Notes under the pieces: model-generated
Told to the model about the DNA's origin: nothing
What the model saw: the letters and a program-made list of their open reading frames with translations, nothing else
The model's database searches: none
From: Cyanobium usitatum str. Tous
GTDB taxonomy: Bacteria > Cyanobacteriota > Cyanobacteriia > PCC-6307 > Cyanobiaceae
NCBI RefSeq assembly: GCF_963920485.1
Contig: NZ_OY986431.1
Span: forward strand, 1,178,001-1,242,000
Length of the DNA stretch: 64,000 nucleotides
Direction: 5' to 3'
In this document: piece after piece, positions 34,039-35,631 of the stretch
Layout: each line of letters begins with the position of its first letter
Position numbering within the stretch: position 1 is the first letter of the stretch
Position numbers and translations under genes: made by a program

Positions 34039-34449
34039 TTGATGCCGGATCCTTCCCCAAGGAACGAGGAGAGGCACATCGTGCCCTCGATCAGCATGAC
34101 GATTCAGATCGACTTTCATGTCGATCCAGTTCCGTTTATTGGTCGCCTTTGGGATGTGAGCTCCTCCGGTGCCTGCCTGCTGTTTCCCATCCGCGAGCCT
34201 GTTGTGCCTGGCTTGGTCGGCACCCTCACGATTCACCACCCCACCTTCGGCGATCCGATCCGGCTGCGGGCCAGCTCCCTCTGGGTAGATCGGCTGGAGT
34301 CTGCCTCCTATGTGGGGGTGCGCTTTCTTGAAACCGTCGACTTCAACACCACCTTTTTGAATTTTCTGATGCGCCGCAGCGGTGGCCATACGCCCGTGGG
34401 TGGTTTTGGCGACCTTCGCTCTGGCACGGCATTCGGCAGCTTCAGTTGA
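34039..34449 (+). CDS. PilZ-domain protein (predicted c-di-GMP receptor)
   Basis: A 136-residue protein that is mostly one PilZ domain. The c-di-GMP-binding signature is present: R-N-E-E-R (RxxxR) at residues 8-12 and DVSSSGAC (DxSxxG) at about 39-46. The C-terminal 30 residues are glycine-rich and basic. PilZ proteins often control motility, exopolysaccharide or cell surface. Its stop overlaps the TTG start of the exported protein downstream, so both are probably made together. Confidence 0.78.
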   Translation: MMPDPSPRNEERHIVPSISMTIQIDFHVDPVPFIGRLWDVSSSGACLLFPIREPVVPGLVGTLTIHHPTFGDPIRLRASSLWVDRLESASYVGVRFLETVDFNTTFLNFLMRRSGGHTPVGGFGDLRSGTAFGSFS

Positions 34450-35039
34450 GCAAGCAGCGCCTTGGCCCAGCCCTGCTGATACCCCTTGGGCTGGGCTGGC
34501 TGCTTGCTAACTCTGCCCAAGCCCTGCAGCGGCCGGTGGATCCAGTAGCGGTCTGCGTGGTAGCCCCCCGGGTCGAGCCAGTGACAGAGGGCGATGCCAT
34601 TGGCCTGGTGCCCACACCCATGCCCCTGCTGGTCGTGGTCGAACCCCTGCTGGAGCTCCGCATCGAGCGCCAGGGCCTGCTGGCCTGGCAGCAGCTTGCG
34701 CCTCCAGGACGCCCCTTGCGCGCCCCCCTGGCCTGGCCCCTGGCCCCCATTGCCCCCGGCGAGGTGGTGGTGCTGCGCCTGAGACCTGAGCAGGCGGCAG
34801 AGGGCAGCTTTGCCCAAGTGCAATTAGTGGGGGCCGACGCCGAGCGGATGGCTCGCACCGCTGCCCTGATTCACTCCCTGGGCCAGCGCCCCCCCGCCTG
34901 GCTGGCAGCGATCGAAACGGCCCTGGAAGCTGGAGATGTGTCCCTGGCCTGGACCCTGCTGTTTGAACCCCAGCTCCCCGATGCAGCCGATCTAGTCGCC
35001 CTGCGCAACGAGGTGGTGAGCAGGGGCTGCGGCGACTGA
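34446..35039 (+). CDS. Secreted protein of unknown function, coupled to the PilZ gene
   Basis: A 197-residue protein starting at a TTG that overlaps the PilZ stop. Residues 1-26 form a signal peptide (LLIPLGLGWLLANSAQA). The mature domain is proline- and leucine-rich (LVPTPMPLLVVVEPLLELRIE, APIAPGEVVVLRLRPEQA) and ends in a helical segment. No family recognised. Coupling to PilZ suggests an envelope function under second-messenger control. Confidence 0.65.
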   Translation: MSKQRLGPALLIPLGLGWLLANSAQALQRPVDPVAVCVVAPRVEPVTEGDAIGLVPTPMPLLVVVEPLLELRIERQGLLAWQQLAPPGRPLRAPLAWPLAPIAPGEVVVLRLRPEQAAEGSFAQVQLVGADAERMARTAALIHSLGQRPPAWLAAIETALEAGDVSLAWTLLFEPQLPDAADLVALRNEVVSRGCGD

Positions 35040-35060: not shown

Positions 35061-35074
35061 AGTACGGCCGTACT
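35061..35074 (+). promoter_or_regulatory. Cyanobacterial LexA-type SOS box upstream of the UmuD-like gene
   Basis: A perfect 14-bp palindrome AGTACGGCCGTACT, 36 bases before the UmuD-like start codon. It fits the cyanobacterial LexA box RGTAC-N3-D-GTWC-B in all but one position and has the GTAC-N4-GTAC core. LexA would repress the downstream gene until DNA damage. Confidence 0.8.
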
Positions 35075-35109
35075 ACTTTTCGCTAGTGTTGCGGCCTTCT
35101 GGGATTGCC

Positions 35110-35631
35110 ATGGCGAGCGATCTGATCTGGCTTGGTCCCTTGCAGCCAGCACATCACGACCTCGAGCCCCTGCTCCTGCCCTTGGCGGGAGAAACCGTGG
35201 CCGCAGGTTTTCCCAGCACTGCCGATGACTACATCGAGGCAACGATCGATCTAAATGGAGCCCTGATTCCGCGACCGAGCTCCACCTTTTTGATGCGGGT
35301 AGACGGCGATGCCATGCGCAGGGAGGGCATCCACCACGGCGATCTATTGGTGGTTGATCGCAGTGTGGGTCCCCGTTCGGGCTCCATCGTGGTCGCCGTG
35401 CACGAGGGGCGCTTTCTGCTGCGGCGACTGGAAGGGGCACCTGCCCATTGGCGCCTGGTGGCCAGCGATGCCACTAGCCCCGCCATTGCCCTGCAAGGTG
35501 ACGATCCCGACCTGCTGATCTGGGGCGTGGTGATCCATGCGGTGCATCACCTCTGGAAGCCATCGCCGCAATCGCGGGTCCGAGGAAGCGCTTTTAAGCC
35601 TTCACCAGAAGCCTTTGGAATAAAGCCATAG
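35110..35631 (+). CDS. UmuD-like S24 protein lacking both catalytic residues
   Basis: A 173-residue S24/UmuD protein that aligns with E. coli UmuD from AGFPSTADDYIEATIDLN through FLMRVDGDAMRREGIHHGDLLVVDRS to IWGVVIHAVHHLW. The cleavage site Ala-Gly, equivalent to UmuD Cys24-Gly25, is kept. The catalytic serine (Ser60) is Ala here (GDAM, codon 35311-35313) and the catalytic lysine (Lys97) is Arg (LLRRL, codon 35422-35424). It should not be able to cleave itself. The ATG at 35110 is chosen; eight residues upstream are possible. No umuC follows. The last 20 residues are a basic tail. Confidence 0.85.
   Translation: MASDLIWLGPLQPAHHDLEPLLLPLAGETVAAGFPSTADDYIEATIDLNGALIPRPSSTFLMRVDGDAMRREGIHHGDLLVVDRSVGPRSGSIVVAVHEGRFLLRRLEGAPAHWRLVASDATSPAIALQGDDPDLLIWGVVIHAVHHLWKPSPQSRVRGSAFKPSPEAFGIKP

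Follow-up and report, generated by a model that had tools for sequence, protein, structure and literature searches.

Mutagenic repair has its textbook switch in UmuD, which cleaves itself; the locus described here raises the question of what a UmuD-like protein does when its own cutting residues are gone. The window, i.e. the whole stretch of 64,000 nucleotides that was analyzed, covers C1:1178001-1242000 of the 2.66-Mb single-contig genome of Cyanobium usitatum str. Tous (G000). It contains a gene for a UmuD-like protein, hereafter A (Table 1), that starts with ATG at 35110, 36 bases beyond the end of a LexA-type box, and stops with TAG at 35629-35631 (alternative start: in-frame GTG at 35086). 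The initial annotation had described a perfect box at this distance, UmuD homology including the Ala-Gly site, replacement of both catalytic residues, and the lack of a UmuC gene behind A. The box is the sole match without mismatch in the window, both replaced codons are where they had been placed, and the absence of UmuC is true locally: the single UmuC match of the genome lies at C1:1052327, behind another UmuD-like gene. The closest named relatives of A are found in Cyanobium sp. T1B-Tous (97%), Synechococcus sp. CS-1330 (95%) and Cyanobium usitatum (94%). Two genes upstream of A, a PilZ-domain ORF is located (34039-34449; Pfam PF07238, 1.2e-8), and the 197-aa ORF between the two (34446-35039) matched zero Pfam families at E 1.

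Table 1. Features of the A locus (positions in the window)
Feature	Position	Strand	Remark
LexA-type (SOS) box AGTACGGCCGTACT	35061..35074	+	perfect palindrome
Protein A, putative UmuD-like substrate subunit, 173 aa, without Ser-Lys dyad	35110..35631	+	
N-terminal arm of A, residues 1-32	35110..35205	+	alignment with UmuD arm
Cleavage site Ala32-Gly33 (P1-P1') of A	35203..35208	+	
Ala68 (GCC) of A, replacing catalytic Ser	35311..35313	+	
Arg105 (CGG) of A, replacing catalytic Lys	35422..35424	+	

The homology to UmuD was confirmed by matches to Pfam Peptidase_S24 (1.9e-22, 79.6 bits), to the NCBIfam UmuD model NF007621 (118.6 bits, cut-off 110) and to E. coli UmuD in the PDB (8gmt, 2.9e-23). 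Ala68 aligns with Ser60 of the E. coli protein and Arg105 with Lys97, its catalytic base. Ser60 and the TVKK strand at 95-98 follow the E. coli numbering given in an excerpt of PMC12984324. A thus combines the S24 fold, the arm, a site with Gly at P1' and, judging from its box, probable SOS control with the absence of the dyad and of an adjacent umuC. As the dyad is missing, we file A as a UmuD paralog without protease residues and not as an autoproteolytic UmuD. S24 is its sole domain, so that the DNA-binding domain of LexA is absent, and the LexA model scores 59 bits (cut-off 110.95). HumD is a ready-processed UmuD' protein; its model (NF051876) gives 76.4 bits for A, below the cut-off of 120. 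The predicted tertiary structure of A is poor (mean pLDDT 59.4, with residues 13-56 and 148-173 below 50) and was used for the fold only; UmuD' ranks first among the PDB matches of the modeled core.

Four S24 matches were detected in the source genome, namely A, LexA and two proteins that we call B and C. In LexA (C1:463675), an S24 domain accompanies the DNA-binding domain, and an AAG site is present together with Ser and Lys. B (C1:1051953-1052288) lies directly before the sole UmuC found, in which the catalytic motifs DGNNFYASCE and SIDEAF are kept. Ser and Lys of B are retained in the motifs GESM and FTLKRL, only 43 residues separate the first possible start from the Ser, and AGFPSP is absent. 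The box of B is located right at the 5' end: an in-frame stop codon overlaps its last base, and the first start codon, TTG, follows 8 bases after it. The predicted structure of B has the UmuD' fold (mean pLDDT 81.5; best PDB matches 1umu, 8gmt and 1ay9). B is therefore a partner of the type that cleavage in trans would require, with the dyad kept, the arm absent and the genome shared with A, and, lying beside UmuC, it is a candidate for the second, active UmuD for which a search had been proposed. Automatic names mislead here: the dyad-less A is called 'autoproteolytic subunit', being above the cut-off, whereas the dyad-bearing B falls below. C (C1:1356197-1356547; L004, L089) is an armless orphan without dyad. 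Further members of class C occur (L053-L061, L075, L076, L166, L167, L272, L277) in up to three copies per genome, fragments counted, and in one case beside a full-length UmuD (G245); Gly or Arg replaces the Ser in all 15 copies that cover the position.

The distribution of these genes was surveyed in 129 classified genomes of the family, using four classes: A (UmuD-like, with arm and site, without dyad), B (UmuC-linked, dyad kept, armless), full-length UmuD (arm, site and Ser all present) and C (armless orphan UmuD-like gene). The genomes were reached via 60 relatives and a family search over 400 genomes that had been taken from a larger group, with two chosen sets (48 and 34 genomes) and 20 extra loci as further sources; the first set of the survey comprises 99 family genomes and the second 34, of which 30 were new. 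Because genomes with strong or several A matches were preferred, the sample is not random and the share of split genomes among the 129 is inflated. A full-length UmuD cut by a contig end (G240, L182), LexA (L002) and rows from outside the family (G042, G046, G058, Gynurincola, Melainabacteria) were left out of the counts.

A was present in 65 of the 129 genomes, amounting to 66 proteins (G007, with 3% contamination, has two); by genus code these are g6 (40), g1 (12), g70 (6), g54 (3), g82 (3) and g46 (1). A full-length UmuD without A was found in 64 genomes, beside UmuC by our distance rule in 62 (exceptions G219 and G088). A together with a full-length UmuD was observed in none of the 129 genomes, nor was B without A. 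All 66 A proteins carry Ala and Arg at the dyad positions and Gly at P1', and 61 have Ala at P1; the dyad change, which was to be looked for in related strains, is shared by all of them. This agreement among 66 proteins from 65 genomes rules out sequencing error or a lone relic as its source. B was detected in 55 of the 65 A genomes, with Ser and Lys kept in every case, and lies near UmuC by the distance rule in 54; in the exception, G383, UmuC is beside B by coordinates. Two A genomes are undecided, UmuC having been found in neither: G060 is 62% complete, and G370 has, at the end of a contig, a B-like fragment that includes the Ser. In all six g70 genomes, A is located upstream of B-UmuC on the same strand, with 593-1847 nt between the A stop and the Ser codon of B. 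One full-length UmuD (G031) has Arg at the aligned Lys position (FTLRKL, with Lys next to it) and the site SSGF.

An AGFPS-like site was found in none of the 42 first-set B loci covered by a search of three frames over 600 nt upstream of the Ser codon. In the controls, the site was recovered from all 56 full-length genes, three of which belong to genomes beyond the family, and from 46 of the 47 A genes; the A gene missed is presumably that of G123, whose EAGF site is outside the search pattern. In the variable N-termini of two B proteins (G386, G347) the stretch AAGLPL occurs, which makes a cis site possible in those two; LPLAxExVxA in the arm of A is largely conserved among A proteins. The losses in A and B are thus complementary and the two genes co-occur: in many small cyanobacteria UmuD seems to be divided into two genes, with the cut part and the cutting site apart.

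A scan with the pattern MRVDGDAM yielded two further UmuC-linked UmuDs with GDAM for GDSM, both from outside the family: one in Gynurincola endophyticus (L050:6001-6363; Arg for Lys, ATGF) and one in a Melainabacteria MAG (L051:6001-6351; Lys kept, SAGF). A split was not seen in either genome; the other S24 matches are two weak ones in Gynurincola and one in a 244-aa frame of the MAG. As to a possible phage or plasmid origin of A, relatives of it were not detected in viral contigs in one tblastn scan; the 69 phage records that matched A, and likewise the best 5000 plasmid records, were all below 60% identity.

Boxes were searched with the pattern AGTAC-N4-GTACT, allowing one mismatch, 450 to 90 nt before the Ser codon. 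The predicted cyanobacterial LexA box consensus is AGTACWNWTGTACT (excerpt of PMC3091678). In the first set, boxes precede 34 of 47 A, 33 of 42 B (without a 43rd row, the truncated full-length UmuD of G240), 43 of 53 full-length and 11 of 13 C genes, compared to 0.6% of shuffled upstream regions; in the second set, they precede 16 of 19 A and 13 of 13 B genes. Across the source genome, the box scan gave 8 and 6 matches vs. 3 and 3 for the reversed-pattern control. A box of the form seen at A also lies before recA (C1:1978463), a dprA-family and an rmuC-family gene. Perfect boxes at C1:1309196 and 1438705 (L083, L084) each stand before an 82-codon ORF, the two having the stretch KQAWIQDPxTAxTMRFxFDPKSWSAHPMYFVD in common, and these may possibly be SOS genes. 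Box-like sites at C1:336600 and 2080202 precede ORFs that by eye resemble groEL and a peptidyl-tRNA hydrolase.

We consider it probable, from gene content and sequence, that UmuD is split in two here, that A is one of the halves and that B cuts A in trans within an A-B heterodimer. An ancestral self-cleaving UmuD would have been duplicated, one copy (A) keeping the arm and the Ala-Gly site and losing the Ser-Lys dyad, the other (B) remaining beside UmuC with its dyad and losing arm and site. Upon DNA damage, LexA would release A and B-UmuC, each from its own box; A would pair with B as UmuD does with UmuD', and B, through its active site, would cut the arm of A on the RecA filament. The products, A' and B, could then serve UmuC as an asymmetric UmuD'2, in which A' perhaps reaches into the polymerase with its new N-terminus and B is bound to the UmuC tail. 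The complementary losses, the co-occurrence and the boxes are read directly from the sequences; dimerization, trans-cleavage, RecA dependence and the division of roles on UmuC are inferred. E. coli offers laboratory precedents for the steps. According to excerpts of PMC5342242, E. coli UmuD is capable of trans-cleavage: its S60A variant, when in a heterodimer with UmuD 18, whose arm is truncated, is efficiently cut by that partner in the presence of RecA and ssDNA. UmuD and UmuD' also form heterodimers by preference. In a Pol V model, one UmuD' sits on the UmuC tail and the other inserts its arm into the polymerase cleft (excerpt of PMC12926913); these unequal places make a division of labor between A' and B plausible.

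Conservation of the cleavage site bears on this proposal. In the first set, the site region of A (VAAGFPSPADD) has a mean genus-weighted entropy of 0.41, compared to 0.36 in full-length UmuDs and a median of 0.80 over the columns of A. This kept region, together with a dyad-bearing, armless partner in 55 of 65 genomes, argues for A being the substrate of a dedicated trans-cutting partner. The residues after the site may be conserved for the sake of the N-terminus that processing creates, and not for cleavage. The initial annotation had suggested that A is an uncleavable damper of mutagenic polymerase activity or a decoy for RecA or LexA. Neither reading is the best supported one, given that the site is kept about as in ordinary UmuDs and that the partner exists; the damper reading is possible, most of all for genomes in which A and UmuC were found and B was not.

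There are eight such genomes (G096, G146, G326, G337, G342, G377, G389, G392; assemblies 73-99% complete). B is absent from the DNA before UmuC in all eight, and a box with 0-2 mismatches is located there, 15-65 nt upstream of where UmuC is estimated to start. Searches of the eight whole genomes with the B protein did not find B: G146 gave A alone, and in the other seven the matches besides A are LexA, 77-85% identical to LexA of the source genome, and in G377 also a C-like gene. A itself has a box with 0-1 mismatch in six of them and with 3 mismatches in G096 and G146. All 56 A proteins with a B partner have Ala at P1, compared to three of the eight without one (Fisher P = 8e-6, kinship uncorrected). 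The three (G326, G389, G392) keep AAG; the other five have Thr (G096, G146) or Ser (G337, G342, G377), residues that occur at P1 of A only among genomes lacking B. On the A tree, this corresponds to four losses of B and three changes of P1, with non-Ala P1 only in lines without B (paired test, P = 0.5). That P1 departs from Ala only without B is as expected if B is the protease for A. Conversely, A with its dead dyad has outlived B in these genomes, from which it follows that A is useful uncut there or is cut by something else, e.g., LexA. In G377, the arm of A before the site is no longer alike; in G337 (L227), the cleavage-site region is doubled (GASGFPGPTSGFPSP).

Ancestry limits how much weight the co-occurrence can carry. 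In a tree of the UmuD-like proteins (160 cores, 112 columns; many forks open and bootstrap not settled), B forms one clade (100/92), and A and C are split from full-length UmuD and B with support 100/99; the two A-labeled rows from outside the family (Gynurincola, Melainabacteria) fall among the outgroup. A and B therefore most likely each arose once within the family, and the 55 co-occurrences are for the most part not independent events. In the UmuC tree, split and full genomes are intermixed, with five label changes, three of them forced by supported branches. The presence of A and the armlessness of the UmuC-linked gene switch together in three of three supported independent pairs (five in all) and are concordant in 93 of 93 rows; the pairs are so few that a sign test yields P = 0.25, and an uncorrected Fisher value should not be taken to show independence. 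Within genus codes, the median dN/dS (first set, overlapping pairs) is 0.23 for A (289 pairs), 0.41 for B (266 pairs) and 0.11 for full-length UmuD (33 pairs). By these ratios A is under purifying selection, and B evolves fast.

The main rival to trans-cleavage, which we regard as rather unlikely, is that A acts as an uncleavable brake: A-B would be inactive, and the arm of A would deliver B to ClpXP, keeping mutagenic repair in check. E. coli offers precedents, as UmuD S60A strongly lowers UV mutagenesis (excerpt of PMC3901139) and the UmuD arm carries a ClpX signal and delivers its partner (excerpt of PMC5342242), and the eight genomes with A and UmuC but without B would suit a brake. It leaves unexplained, however, why Ala at P1 is invariant wherever A has a B partner and is replaced only where B is missing, and why all 55 B proteins keep the dyad while the Ser is gone from every one of the 15 armless C copies that cover the position.

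We find it distinctly improbable that the dyad of B serves another substrate, such as LexA or a phage repressor, that A is cut by LexA or stays uncut, and that the co-occurrence reflects nothing but common history. The single origins of A and B would fit this, as would the domains, AAG site, Ser and Lys of LexA in the source genome. On the other hand, B adjoins UmuC and not LexA, A and B are neighbors in g70, and A and the armless state switch together on the UmuC tree, in pairs too few for significance. That A is a functionless, decaying duplicate seems very improbable: both catalytic residues are lost and its dN/dS exceeds that of full-length UmuDs, but the two replacement residues and the P1' Gly are identical in 66 of 66 copies, purifying selection acts on A, and the box is kept in most. 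The initial annotation was right that A is not a random relic, since selection keeps it.

Returning to trans-cleavage by B, we lean on balance, with some reserve, toward the wider view that an SOS self-cleaving switch has been naturally split into enzyme and substrate, that each of the two subunits has taken over one of the unequal jobs in UmuD'2, and that some lineages later dispensed with the protease subunit, leaving UmuC to work with a dead UmuD that stays uncut. If true, a homodimer would have become an obligate heterodimer by complementary loss, and Pol V could be activated only once two gene products under separate control come together. UmuD is considered capable of cleavage in cis as well as in trans (excerpt of PMC5342242). 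In the split lineages, gene content leaves trans-cleavage as the only simple option, which makes them a natural experiment on this question, and likewise on the need of Pol V for two UmuD' subunits. Among open-licence papers in PMC, as far as their accessible text goes, we found no report of a split UmuD. Second umuD copies are listed for Cyanobium gracile PCC6307, Synechococcus PCC6312 and Acaryochloris in PMC5101192; the excerpted parts of that paper on umuD duplications give copy numbers and nothing on dyad, arm or complementarity.

Compared with known systems, A is like UmuD/UmuD' of E. coli (Pol V, S24) in fold, arm, place of the site and SOS-type box, with homology over most of its length (residues 19-146 of A). 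It differs in having neither the dyad nor a umuC behind it, the cutting function residing in another gene. B resembles a ready-made UmuD' such as the HumD-like proteins (NF051876), but reaches only 35.1 bits with their model, against the cut-off of 120, and is accompanied by A in all 55 B genomes. The nearest counterpart is the E. coli pair UmuD S60A and UmuD 18 (excerpt of PMC5342242), in which a dead-site, armed partner is cut in trans by a live-site partner without a usable arm, and to which we liken A and B. That pair is laboratory-made, whereas A and B occur naturally, as genes, in 55 of the 129 classified genomes; compared to UmuD S60A, A has also exchanged Lys for Arg, and A and B stand behind two separate boxes.
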